The position numbers were made by a program, and so were the translations under genes. Shown here piece by piece: positions 36,832-64,000 of a DNA stretch of 64,000 nucleotides; positions within the stretch are counted from its first letter, which is position 1; the number at the start of each line of letters is the position of its first letter. The stretch is from an uncultured Bacteroidota bacterium (GTDB lineage Bacteria; Bacteroidota; Bacteroidia; Flavobacteriales; Flavobacteriaceae): contig CABXHU010000004.1 of NCBI GenBank assembly GCA_902512065.1, forward strand, positions 1-64,000, read 5' to 3'. The notes beneath the pieces are model-generated. The model saw only the letters and a program-made list of their open reading frames with translations. It was not told where the DNA came from and made no database searches.

Positions 36832-39597
36832 ATGAGTAATAAAAAACGTGTCTTTTTAATTGATGCATATGCTCTAATTTTTCGTGGTTATTATGCCTTT
36901 ATAAAAAATCCTAGAATTAATTCAAAAGGGCTAGATACCTCTGCAATTTTAGGATTTACAAATTCATTATTTGATGTAATTAAAAGGGAAACCCCTGAAT
37001 ATATTGCTGTCTGCTTTGATAAGGGTGGCAGTCAAGACAGAATAAAAATATTTTCAGAATATAAAGCTAACAGAGATGAAACACCAGAAGGAATTAAAAT
37101 AGCTGTTCCATATATAGAGAAAATTCTAAATGCCCTTGGGATTTGTATAATGGTTAAAGAAGGATATGAAGCAGATGACATAATAGGAACATTAGCAAAA
37201 CAAGCAGAACAAGCAAATTTTGAAACCTTTATGGTAACCCCCGATAAAGATTTTGCTCAATTAGTTAACGACCAAACATTTATGTACAAACCCTTATTTG
37301 GCGGAGGCTATGAAACATGGGGAGTAGAAGAAGTTAAAAGTAAATTTGAAATTAATGATCCTATTCAAGTAATAGATTTCTTAGCAATGAAAGGTGATTC
37401 TGTAGATAATATTCCTGGACTTCCGGGTGTTGGAGATAAAACAGCAAAAAAGTTTCTTAAAGAATATGGTAGTATTGAAAATCTATTATCTAATACAGAT
37501 AAAATCAAAGGGAAATTAAGAGAAAAAGTAGAGGCTAATAGCGAGGCTGGCTTACTTTCCAAAAAACTTGCTACAATTATAACAGATGTTCCTGTCGATT
37601 TTGATGCCAATAAATTCAAATTATCTCTAGATAATCCTGAAAAATTATTAGAAATATTTACAGAATTAGAGTTTAGAAGATTAGCTGAAAACTTTAATAA
37701 AATATTTCATGATAAAATTCAAAAAGTAAAAGATCCTGTTAAGGAAATTATTATTGAAAAAAAATCATTTACTGCGGGTCATGGTCAATTTTCTCTCTTT
37801 GATCAGGAGAATAATGACGCAAATGAAAAGGCTTCTAAAAGAGTTTCAAAAGATCAAATTACTCATGTTTTTCAAATTATTGATTCAAAAATAAGTGCTA
37901 AGCTTTTTCTAGATAAATTAATGAAGCAACGCTCTGTTGCATATAGTCTGTTATTAGATGACACAAACCCTTTAGAATCTAATTTAACTGGAATCTCATT
38001 CTGCTGGAATAAAAACAAAACATATTTCCTTGATATTTTATCCTTAAATCTAACTGAAAAAAAAATACTGCAAAAAATAAAATTATTTTATGAAAATAAT
38101 TCAATTGAAAAAATTAGTGAAAATTTAAAGTATGATATAAAATCCTTTTCAAAATATAACATCTCTATAAAAGGAGAAGTTTTTGACACAACATTAGCGC
38201 ACTATTTGATTAATCCTGATATTAATCATAACACTAAAATAATCTCTGAAAATTATTTAAATTATTCTTTGATCAATGGAGAAAATGAAATTAACAACCT
38301 CTCTGATAGAACAAATATAATTTTCCAATTAAAAGGACTTCTTGAAAAAGAGTTAAAGCAAAATAAACATATTTCATTGTATAAAGAAATAGAAATACCT
38401 GTTCTAAAAGTGCTTGCTAGTATGGAAATAGAAGGAATTAATCTAGATGTAGCTTATTTAAATAAGCTCTCAAAAGAAACAGATAAAGATATCCAGAAGA
38501 CAAAAAAAATAATATATAATGAATCAAAAGAAGAATTTAATATATCCTCTCCAAAACAATTAGGTGAAGTTTTATTTGATAAAATGAAAATAATATCTAA
38601 TCCAAAAAAAACAAAAACTGGTCAATACTCAACTTCTGAAGATGTATTATCATATTTGGCAAAAAATAATGATTTTGTTAAGCATATTCTTGAGTATAGA
38701 AGCCTTACTAAGCTCCAAAATACATATATAAGAGCATTGCCTAATGAAGTATTAAAAGACACCGGGAAAATTCATACAGAATATATGCAAACAGTTGCTG
38801 CTACTGGGAGATTAAGTAGTATAAATCCAAACTTGCAGAATATTCCTATTAGAACCAGTAGGGGTAAAGAAATTAGAAGAGCATTTATTCCTAGAAGTAA
38901 GGACTTCGTTATATTATCAGCCGATTATTCTCAAATTGAATTAAGGATAATTGCCGCATTAAGTAATGAGGAGAATATGATTAATGCCTTCAATAATAAT
39001 GAAGACATACATTCGTCAACTGCTGCTACTGTATTTAACACAAAAATTGAAAATGTGACCAATTCACAAAGAACTAACGCAAAGACAGTGAATTTTGGTA
39101 TCATTTATGGTGTTTCTGCTTTTGGATTAAGCAACCAAACAAATCTATCCAGAAAAGAATCTAAAGAATTAATCGAGACTTATTACAATAAGTACCCTAA
39201 ACTAAAGGAATATATTGCCACGCAGATTGCATTTGCTAGAGATAAAGGATATGTAGAAACATTGCTAGGCAGAAGGAGATACTTAAAGGATATTAACTCA
39301 TCCAATTCAGTGGTAAGAGGGGGTTCAGAGAGAAATGCTATTAATGCTCCTATTCAGGGAAGTGCAGCAGACATAATTAAAATTGCTATGATTAATATTC
39401 AATCTAAACTAATAAATAGAACATATAAAAGTAAAATGCTTCTTCAAGTACACGATGAATTAGTTTTCGATGTATTTAAACCTGAATTAAATGACATTAT
39501 TTCTTTAGTAAAAGAAGAAATGGAAAATGCGTTTTCATTAAAAGTACCGTTAGATATAGATATGAATTATGGCGAGAATTGGTTAGAAGCACATTAA
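36832..39597 (+). CDS. polA: DNA polymerase I
   Basis: 921 aa; 5' nuclease domain (LIDAYALIFRGYYAF, YEADDIIGTLA, GDSVDNIPGLPGVGDKTAKK); polymerase motifs DYSQIELRIIAALS, NAKTVNFGIIYGVSAFGL, LLQVHDELVFDV. Confidence 0.98.
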   Translation: MSNKKRVFLIDAYALIFRGYYAFIKNPRINSKGLDTSAILGFTNSLFDVIKRETPEYIAVCFDKGGSQDRIKIFSEYKANRDETPEGIKIAVPYIEKILNALGICIMVKEGYEADDIIGTLAKQAEQANFETFMVTPDKDFAQLVNDQTFMYKPLFGGGYETWGVEEVKSKFEINDPIQVIDFLAMKGDSVDNIPGLPGVGDKTAKKFLKEYGSIENLLSNTDKIKGKLREKVEANSEAGLLSKKLATIITDVPVDFDANKFKLSLDNPEKLLEIFTELEFRRLAENFNKIFHDKIQKVKDPVKEIIIEKKSFTAGHGQFSLFDQENNDANEKASKRVSKDQITHVFQIIDSKISAKLFLDKLMKQRSVAYSLLLDDTNPLESNLTGISFCWNKNKTYFLDILSLNLTEKKILQKIKLFYENNSIEKISENLKYDIKSFSKYNISIKGEVFDTTLAHYLINPDINHNTKIISENYLNYSLINGENEINNLSDRTNIIFQLKGLLEKELKQNKHISLYKEIEIPVLKVLASMEIEGINLDVAYLNKLSKETDKDIQKTKKIIYNESKEEFNISSPKQLGEVLFDKMKIISNPKKTKTGQYSTSEDVLSYLAKNNDFVKHILEYRSLTKLQNTYIRALPNEVLKDTGKIHTEYMQTVAATGRLSSINPNLQNIPIRTSRGKEIRRAFIPRSKDFVILSADYSQIELRIIAALSNEENMINAFNNNEDIHSSTAATVFNTKIENVTNSQRTNAKTVNFGIIYGVSAFGLSNQTNLSRKESKELIETYYNKYPKLKEYIATQIAFARDKGYVETLLGRRRYLKDINSSNSVVRGGSERNAINAPIQGSAADIIKIAMINIQSKLINRTYKSKMLLQVHDELVFDVFKPELNDIISLVKEEMENAFSLKVPLDIDMNYGENWLEAH

Positions 39598-61109: not shown

Positions 61110-62444
61110 TTAGTATTCATTAGCTGTTATTTTTTTGTAAATTAATAATGCTTGACTATCTGAAAAAGATGCAATATAATGACATATTTCTAATATTCGT
61201 GAGTATAGTTCTGGTTTGTTTATATCTACTGTATCAGGCAAAAGATTTAGGATTAACTTATCATAACTATTAGCATTTCCTGCATGCATATTATTAGCTG
61301 CTGTAATGTAGCTTTCTAATAATACACTTATAAGATTATAACCTGCAATTTCTTTTTCAATAACCTCCTTTGACTCATATATGTTCTCTACACTAATCTT
61401 AATAATATCAGAAATCTGAGCTTTATATTTACTTCGATCCAAAAGAGATGATTCAAATACTCCTTTTATTATTTTCTCTTCATTATTCATAAATATATCA
61501 ACACTCTCATTAATCAAAGTATTTATAGACAAGGCTCTTAAATAGCTTATTCTATCAGTAGTATTACTTAGTTGATGATACTTTTTTGTGTTTATTGAAT
61601 CTCTTACCAAATTAATCAAATATTCTAATGCAAATTCTTCTTCAATTAATCCAAGATTTATGCCATCCTCAAAATCAATTATTGTATAACAAATATCATC
61701 AGCTGCTTCTACTAAATATGCTAATGGATGTCTTGTATAGCTCCCTGTTGAATCTTTTGATAATCCAAGTTCTTGTGCTATTTCAGAAAATATTCTTACC
61801 TCAGACTGAAAGAACCCGTATTTCTTATGGGAAACATTTACAGTAGGTTTTATCGGAAGGGACCCCTTTGGATATTTTACAAAAGCTCCAAGTGTGGCAT
61901 AGCTTAATCTAAGACCTCCTTCTCTTCCAATTCTTGATTGTGTAAGGATTTTAAACCCATTCGCATTCCCTTCAAAATCACATAAATCTTGATACTGCTT
62001 CTTAGTTAAACTCCTAGAAAAATCTTTCCCCTTGCCAGATATAAAAAACTGTCCAATAGATTTTTCTCCAGAATGACCAAATGGTGGATTCCCAATATCA
62101 TGAGCTAATGATGCAGAAGCTACAATTGCTCCAAAATCATTAGCCTGATAGCCATGAACATCTCTTAAATCAGGATATTTTTCAAGAATTTTTAATCCTA
62201 CCTTCCTGCCTAAAGACCTTCCAACAACACTAACCTCTAAGCTATGGGTTAGCCTAGTATGGACAAAATCTTCATTTGACAAAGGGACTACCTGTGTCTT
62301 ATCTTGTAAGCTTCTAAATTCAGAAGAGAAAATTATTCTATCATAATCTACCTCAAAGCCAAGACGAATTTCATCTTGATCCTTTCTTTCCCTTTTTTGA
62401 GTATCTCCAAACCTTTTTAATGATAATAATTTTTCCCAGTTCAT
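61110..62444 (-). CDS. dgt: dGTPase-like HD-domain dNTP triphosphohydrolase
   Basis: 444 aa; RTRLTHSLEVS-type VHTRLTHSLEVSVVGRSLG, ASLAHDIGNPPFGHSGE, LVEAADDICYTIIDFEDG. Confidence 0.94.
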   Translation of the reverse strand: MNWEKLLSLKRFGDTQKRERKDQDEIRLGFEVDYDRIIFSSEFRSLQDKTQVVPLSNEDFVHTRLTHSLEVSVVGRSLGRKVGLKILEKYPDLRDVHGYQANDFGAIVASASLAHDIGNPPFGHSGEKSIGQFFISGKGKDFSRSLTKKQYQDLCDFEGNANGFKILTQSRIGREGGLRLSYATLGAFVKYPKGSLPIKPTVNVSHKKYGFFQSEVRIFSEIAQELGLSKDSTGSYTRHPLAYLVEAADDICYTIIDFEDGINLGLIEEEFALEYLINLVRDSINTKKYHQLSNTTDRISYLRALSINTLINESVDIFMNNEEKIIKGVFESSLLDRSKYKAQISDIIKISVENIYESKEVIEKEIAGYNLISVLLESYITAANNMHAGNANSYDKLILNLLPDTVDINKPELYSRILEICHYIASFSDSQALLIYKKITANEY

Positions 62445-62509: not shown

Positions 62510-62542
62510 ATAACATTCTCTTAACATTAAGGTTACATTATA
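62510..62542 (+). promoter_or_regulatory. Pho-box-like array: three TTAACA-like hexamers on an exact 11-bp period
   Basis: ATAACA (510-515), TTAACA (521-526), GTTACA (532-537), each followed by TT; immediately upstream of a near-consensus -7 box GATCTTTG (547-554). Confidence 0.6.
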
Positions 62543-62580
62543 AAATGATCTTTGCAATAGAATATTAATTCATTTTAAAA

Positions 62581-63579
62581 ATGAAAAGATATATATTATT
62601 AGTTCTAGTATTATTTACGATGTATTCCTTTTCTCAAAAGGACAATAATGCAGTTAATGCTAAAGGGAAGCCTCATTTTAAAGTATTTTGGAATTATCAT
62701 TATGCAGAAGGTATTCAACAAGGTAGTGCCTTTGAATTAACAAGAGCCTATCTTGGTTACAAATATAAATTTGATGAGAGATTTTCTGCAAAAATTATCT
62801 ATGACATAGGGGAAAATGATGCCGGGAGTAATCATACTGCATTTGTAAAAATAGCGCAACTCGATTACAAAATAGATCCAAGTGTTAAAATCAGTATGGG
62901 ATTGATTGGAGGAAAGCAGTATAAAGATCAAGAAAATCATTGGGGATATAGATACATTTATAAAATGCTTCAAGATGAACATAAATTTGGTCCTAGTGCT
63001 GATTTAGGAATAAATGTAGAATTTAAAATTAGTAAAACAATAATAGGGAACCTGTTTGTGTTAAATGGAGAAGGATATAAAAATCTTCAAGACGATGATG
63101 GAAATCAAAGGGTTGGAATGAGTCTGATTTATAATCTAACAAAAAAATTAACTACTAAATTCTATTATGACACGTATGCCTCTGAAAACTCTAAGTCATT
63201 AAATAATTTGGCTTTTTTTGCTGGCTATAAAGCCGATACATGGAGCATTGGAGCTGAATATAATAAAATGGAAAATGGAATAAACTACAAAACAACTATT
63301 GATGGACATAATCTAGATGGTATTTCTTTTTATGGCAGTTATGGCTTTAATAATAAAATTGAAATATTTGCTAGATTTGATGAAATATCCTCTAATACTT
63401 TAACTAATCAAGACAATAGCTGGAACTATAATAAAGATGGAGCTCTATTAATTTTTGGAATTGAATACGCAGTTTCTAAAGGAGTAAAATTTTCAATAAA
63501 CACAAGGAGTTTTAATTATATAAATGATGATATAGAAGATATGTCATTAATATATTTTAACACAGAATTTAAATTATAA
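62581..63579 (+). CDS. Outer-membrane porin (phosphate-selective porin O/P-like)
   Basis: 332 aa; signal peptide; ELTRAYLGYKYKFDERFSAKIIYDIG; alternating beta-strand pattern; terminal ...YFNTEFKL. Confidence 0.85.
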   Translation: MKRYILLVLVLFTMYSFSQKDNNAVNAKGKPHFKVFWNYHYAEGIQQGSAFELTRAYLGYKYKFDERFSAKIIYDIGENDAGSNHTAFVKIAQLDYKIDPSVKISMGLIGGKQYKDQENHWGYRYIYKMLQDEHKFGPSADLGINVEFKISKTIIGNLFVLNGEGYKNLQDDDGNQRVGMSLIYNLTKKLTTKFYYDTYASENSKSLNNLAFFAGYKADTWSIGAEYNKMENGINYKTTIDGHNLDGISFYGSYGFNNKIEIFARFDEISSNTLTNQDNSWNYNKDGALLIFGIEYAVSKGVKFSINTRSFNYINDDIEDMSLIYFNTEFKL

Positions 63580-63583
63580 AGAA

Positions 63584-64000
63584 ATGGAGAATATTTATTT
63601 ATTAATGTTAGTTGCACTAGTTGCATTGGCTATTGCAGACCTTATAGTAGGGGTCAGTAATGATGCAGTTAATTTTTTAAACTCTGCTCTTGGTACCAAA
63701 GTACTTTCGTTTAAAACCATCATGATTGTTGCCAGCATTGGGATTGCTGTTGGAGCAGTGTTTTCTAGTGGGATGATGGAAGTAGCCAGAAAAGGAATAT
63801 TTAATCCTGGCGAATTTATGTTTAATGAGATCATGATAATTTTCATGGCGGTAATGATTACAGATATTTTATTACTTGATTTCTTCAATACTATTGGATT
63901 GCCAACATCTACTACTGTCTCTATTGTATTTGAACTATTAGGAGCCTCTGTTGCTATGGCACTAATTAAAATTGGACTAGATAATGGTAGTTTTTCAGAT
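63584..64000 (+). CDS. Inorganic phosphate transporter, PiT family (truncated by right window edge)
   Basis: Open frame from ATG 63584 to the end (139 codons): MENIYLLMLVALVALAIADLIVGVSNDAVNFLNSALGTKVLSFKTIMIVASIGIAVGAVFSSGMMEVARKGIFNP...DFFNTIGLPTSTTVSIVFELLGA; GVSNDAVNFLNSALGTK is PiT signature-like. Absent from the supplied ORF track because it lacks a stop. Confidence 0.9.
   Translation, partial: MENIYLLMLVALVALAIADLIVGVSNDAVNFLNSALGTKVLSFKTIMIVASIGIAVGAVFSSGMMEVARKGIFNPGEFMFNEIMIIFMAVMITDILLLDFFNTIGLPTSTTVSIVFELLGASVAMALIKIGLDNGSFSD

Follow-up and report, generated by a model that had tools for sequence, protein, structure and literature searches.

Three direct repeats, set 11 bp apart upstream of a porin-PiT operon, very probably constitute a genuine flavobacterial Pho box with TTAACA half-sites (probability of about 0.87, on the evidence of sequence comparison). 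The repeats have a conserved spacing and a conserved phase to the −7 box, are linked to phosphate genes, and belong to a genome encoding a probably orthologous PhoB/PhoR-like pair. As in other Pho boxes, at least two repeats lie head to tail at 11 bp, and phosphate-acquisition genes follow, both here (porin-PiT) and in relatives (pst, nptA and PiT). The sequence-only reading of this DNA had proposed an operator for a PhoB/PhoP-type regulator; conservation, linkage to phosphate genes and the finding of the box at pstS and nptA in relatives support this proposal, and such a regulator would be expected to bind the site.

Repeat array, promoter and operon

The window (the whole stretch of DNA analysed, 64,000 nucleotides) contains the following features:

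61110..62444, minus strand: HD-domain (dGTPase-like) gene, divergent neighbour
62510..62515, plus strand: repeat 1 of the probable Pho box, ATAACA, predicted at −49 to −44; register kept in orthologues
62521..62526, plus strand: repeat 2, TTAACA, most conserved of the half-sites, starting 26 bp upstream of the −7 box
62532..62537, plus strand: repeat 3, GTTACA, starting 15 bp upstream of the −7 box
62547..62554, plus strand: −7 box, GATCTTTG, one mismatch from TAnnTTTG
62559, plus strand: predicted transcription start
62581..63579, plus strand: outer-membrane porin, OprO/OprP-like, 332 aa, predicted 16-stranded barrel
63584..64000, running beyond the window, plus strand: PiT phosphate transporter, 764 aa in full, same operon

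The three hexamers lie where the sequence-only reading had placed them, in steps of exactly 11 bp, and a check of the sequence confirmed (T)WACATT as their common core. The box one base off TAnnTTTG was likewise found as described, with a gap of 4 bp between the third 11-bp unit (62532-62542) and GATCTTTG; counted from the shared GTTACATT core, this gap is 7 bp. The −7 box has the form GATATTTG in sister genomes, such that the genus keeps GATATTTG/GATCTTTG rather than TAnnTTTG, the form present in several other families. In Flavobacterium psychrophilum, the −7 box extends from −12 to −5 (PMC9723704), and the transcription start was predicted on this basis, giving a predicted porin leader of 22 nt. 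Repeat 2 would then lie at −38 to −33 and occupy the position of the absent −33 element: no TTG-type −33 element was found upstream of the −7 box at this site or in the aligned consensus of relatives.

The downstream genes are a porin and a PiT transporter, as had been claimed, and are separated by 4 bp; they are co-linear in most marine relatives. The PiT assignment is supported by the PHO4 domain profile (PF01384; 99.8 bits for the full protein, cut-off 33.7), and that of the porin by its fold, the structural model having 16 strands and matching porins including OprP (2o4v, TM 0.72). The match of the porin to Pfam Porin_O_P (PF07396; E 9.5e-4, 18.9 bits) lies below the family cut-off of 20.9 bits, and a sequence search of the PDB with this protein returned no significant relatives. 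The model thus points to a porin rather than to a proven OprP, and the term “phosphate porin” rests on context and on the general 16-strand fold.

The motif WTWACATT-N3-TTWACATT-N4-TWACATT occurs once in the window even with three mismatches allowed, and that copy is perfect; the mean of dinucleotide shuffles gave an expectation of 0.06 copies per window. The two-repeat core, taken without the −7 box, has its sole perfect copy in the whole assembly at this site (1.27 Mb, 77% complete, such that further targets may be missing), and when a correctly placed −7 box is required as well, the pair occurs just once in this genome at ≤1 mismatch. In a sister genome (G001), this combination has only one perfect copy, at the orthologous promoter. 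A degenerate two-repeat core (≤2 mismatches) was rejected as a genome-wide marker: being no commoner than its reversed control, it is uninformative alone. This result, together with an A+T content of about 80% in the intergenic region, is what could be said for chance repeats in A+T-rich DNA. We give that explanation almost no credence, given the low expectation for the triple motif and a conservation specific to the 11-bp spacing, to the phase and to the gene context, which already contradicts it.

Conservation of spacing and phase, and linkage to phosphate genes

The repeats are strongly conserved upstream of orthologues, both in sister genomes and across other families within the order; their loss from such regions had been named in the sequence-only reading as grounds for abandoning it. 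The set of porin upstream regions was enlarged by 80 loci from named genomes, yielding 55 non-redundant regions of 300 bp; windows of 150 bp had missed several Lutibacter sites, which were recovered at 300 bp. A TTWACA pair at 11-bp spacing was present in 36 of the 55 regions, and pairs at most other spacings in 2-5, with the exception of spacings of 6, 16, 19 and 22 bp (11-21 regions); the raised count at 22 bp is expected, because arrays of three also yield 22-bp pairs. Triples at 11 bp were found in 22 regions, and at other spacings in 0-4. In the 150-bp regions, the 11-bp pair was present in 31/59, versus 1.7 in shuffles.

The distances from repeat to TTTG in the 55-region set peaked at 15 and 26 bp, and a few were observed at 36-38 and 47-48 bp, forming an approximate 11-bp ladder. 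The aligned consensus was TAACATT-N4-TTAACATT, to which a third unit was often added, and TTTG lay 30 bp downstream of where the second repeat begins; the aligned rows were picked on the motif, and the independent evidence comes from the spacing and offset tests. The first two repeats are the most conserved pair, the second lying 26 bp upstream of the −7 box. Repeat 3 is degenerate in many relatives and strong in Lutibacter-type pst operons. The suggestion that the repeats stand in for the −33 element agrees with these fixed distances (the 15- and 26-bp peaks) and with the missing TTG-type −33 sequence.

The neighbours of the porin vary with lineage: PiT in marine clades, pstSCAB-phoU in Lutibacter and relatives, and phoBR or nptA elsewhere. 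The 11-bp pair was found in 35 of the 39 loci in which the porin was linked to PiT, pst, nptA or phoBR, versus 1 of 16 unlinked porins (P = 5e-9, uncorrected for shared ancestry). The same box precedes pstS (G043 and G046) and nptA (G046 and G058) in related families. A scan of 251 genomes of the family for the exact composite pattern returned 12 matches, and none for the reversed control. Three of these matches lay before porin-PiT, two directly before PiT and one beside an nptA-like gene; the remainder included matches upstream of TonB-dependent receptors or of lipoproteins without an assigned role, and a single match, possibly a chance one, before a ribosomal gene. The matches before genes with no clear phosphate role count against the Pho-box reading, as does phoB itself: a box upstream of the PhoB homologue, envisaged in the sequence-only reading, was not found in the genus (best pair, 9/12).

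Some of the genes following exact Pho-box-like promoters recur: TonB-dependent receptors in two genomes and a CAP-domain lipoprotein in two genomes (L217:7844, L218:2317, L222:4251 and L223:5247). These genes, which have no known phosphate role, are possible further targets.

The regulator pair and the proposed switch

The genome encodes one PhoB-like regulator and a PhoR-like kinase (G000:C1:37079 onward). Downstream of phoB-phoR lies trmB, and an acyl-ligase gene flanks the set; both neighbours also border the phoBR-pst-porin clusters of other families. The closest relatives of the response regulator (56-68% identity) are the regulators whose genes adjoin porin, pst or nptA in other families, together with their counterparts in other genomes; paralogues are 30-40% identical. 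The response regulator scores best against PhoB models, yet remains under the NCBIfam cut-offs (211 vs 296 and 201 vs 270); the kinase is likewise below the NCBIfam PhoR cut-off. The designation of the response regulator as a probable PhoB orthologue is based on synteny and on grouping by identity, the tree having left the deep forks of the group open.

The acyl-ligase gene beside phoB-phoR-trmB (L046:1462-3194; G000:C1, about 37040-38770) corresponds to the far end of the pst-porin cluster elsewhere. This arrangement suggests that transport genes once lay between phoBR-trmB and the acyl-ligase gene and have since been lost or relocated.

At low phosphate, PhoR would phosphorylate the PhoB-type response regulator, which would then very probably bind the head-to-tail 11-bp half-sites. 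Bound PhoB would recruit the housekeeping sigma factor to a promoter with a −7 box and without a −33 element, and the porin-PiT operon would be switched on for phosphate uptake. It is the geometry of the site that suggests activation at low phosphate. The repeats lie upstream of the −7 box, not over it, at a fixed distance, which is the classical position of an activator, and without them the promoter would have no −33 element. These features make it highly improbable that the box represses the operon, although deletion of the PhoPR pair in Riemerella raised pstS about 8-fold (PMC5399024), and the sign of regulation could therefore differ. No more probable is a site serving both the operon and the HD-domain gene, as its position in a divergent intergenic region might suggest; the box is kept in relatives with a different upstream neighbour, and since it persists without the HD-domain gene, that gene is probably not part of the system.

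The repeats might instead serve as the operator of a different regulator of the OmpR family, an RprY-like protein being the most plausible candidate, or of an ArcA-type redox regulator. Binding to direct repeats of 10-11 bp is general among OmpR-family regulators, and apart from the PhoB-like protein, the genome was found to encode a single full-length OmpR-type regulator, which is RprY-like. The motif of Riemerella anatipestifer PhoP was noted to resemble that of E. coli ArcA (PMC9603813). However, the box tracks phosphate genes across families, being found upstream of pstS and nptA as well, and the regulators encoded beside the boxes belong to the PhoB-like rather than the RprY-like group. 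We therefore consider another regulator very unlikely, and a Pho box bound by PhoB the better reading.

Known Pho systems and the apparent absence of Pst and free PhoU

The type of switch is already known, and its exact layout has hardly been described before in this bacterial group. In Bacillus subtilis, the PhoP box is built of TTAACA-like hexamers repeated every 11 bp, and frequently contains three or more; it differs in being associated with an unrelated promoter type, and the regulon is much smaller here. The E. coli Pho box takes the place of the −35 element. Like the site described here, this box, which is the operator of PhoB in E. coli, consists of 11-bp head-to-tail direct repeats before phosphate uptake genes (PMC4415409). 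Its half-site is CTGTCAT rather than TTAACAT, and the promoter here has a Bacteroidota −7 box, with the best repeat 26 bp away.

Within the Flavobacteriales, the DAP-seq motif of Riemerella anatipestifer PhoP, a PhoP/PhoB-like regulator, has TTTAACA as its most conserved bases (583 peaks), matching the repeats described here; as far as the accessible part of that report extends, this putative PhoB counterpart was not assigned a rule of spacing or promoter phase, or tied to phosphate genes (PMC9603813). The F. johnsoniae PhoBR cluster (Fjoh_0541-0546), which encodes a glycosyltransferase, a PF07396 porin, PhoR and PhoB, has parts matching the phosphate-linked phoBR-porin clusters; PhoB was induced at low Pi, but the porin beside phoBR was not, and no Pho box was mentioned (PMC8115612). 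The uninduced porin counts against the reading proposed here. The control of phosphate starvation in Bacteroidota has been studied genetically, and the papers found, among which the Riemerella PhoP motif was the only one, gave no rule for site spacing and promoter phase. The 251-genome scan suggests that the rule of 11-bp TTAACA repeats 26 or 15 bp before a −7 box is sharp enough for Pho regulons to be mapped from sequence alone. Such a rule would be useful for interpreting phosphate stress in uncultured marine flavobacteria, which are abundant.

Searches of six incomplete genomes of the genus returned no match over the cut-off for PstB and none for PhoU, and nptA was not found in the four genus genomes searched. 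The genus thus appears to lack Pst and free PhoU.

The C-terminal domain of PiT, of about 200 aa, has a PhoU fold missed by Pfam (L074:3585-5876; 63584-64000 onward). It was modelled with good confidence on an 86%-identical PiT from a sister genome, and comparison with PhoU crystal structures gave a TM of about 0.7; by sequence, the domain had no significant PDB relatives, and the fold emerged only from the structure comparison. We raise, as a tentative and rather doubtful idea, that the Pho regulon of this streamlined marine flavobacterium has been pared to essentially one strong target, with PstSCAB and free PhoU lost and the PiT-fused PhoU-fold domain informing PhoR of phosphate; signalling from this domain to PhoR is speculation.

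Another genome (G037) encodes, besides the flavobacterial PhoB-like regulator, a second regulator that is formally of PhoB type, since it passes the Bacteroides PhoB model, and whose gene shares a contig with pst-phoU (L084:6122-8622).
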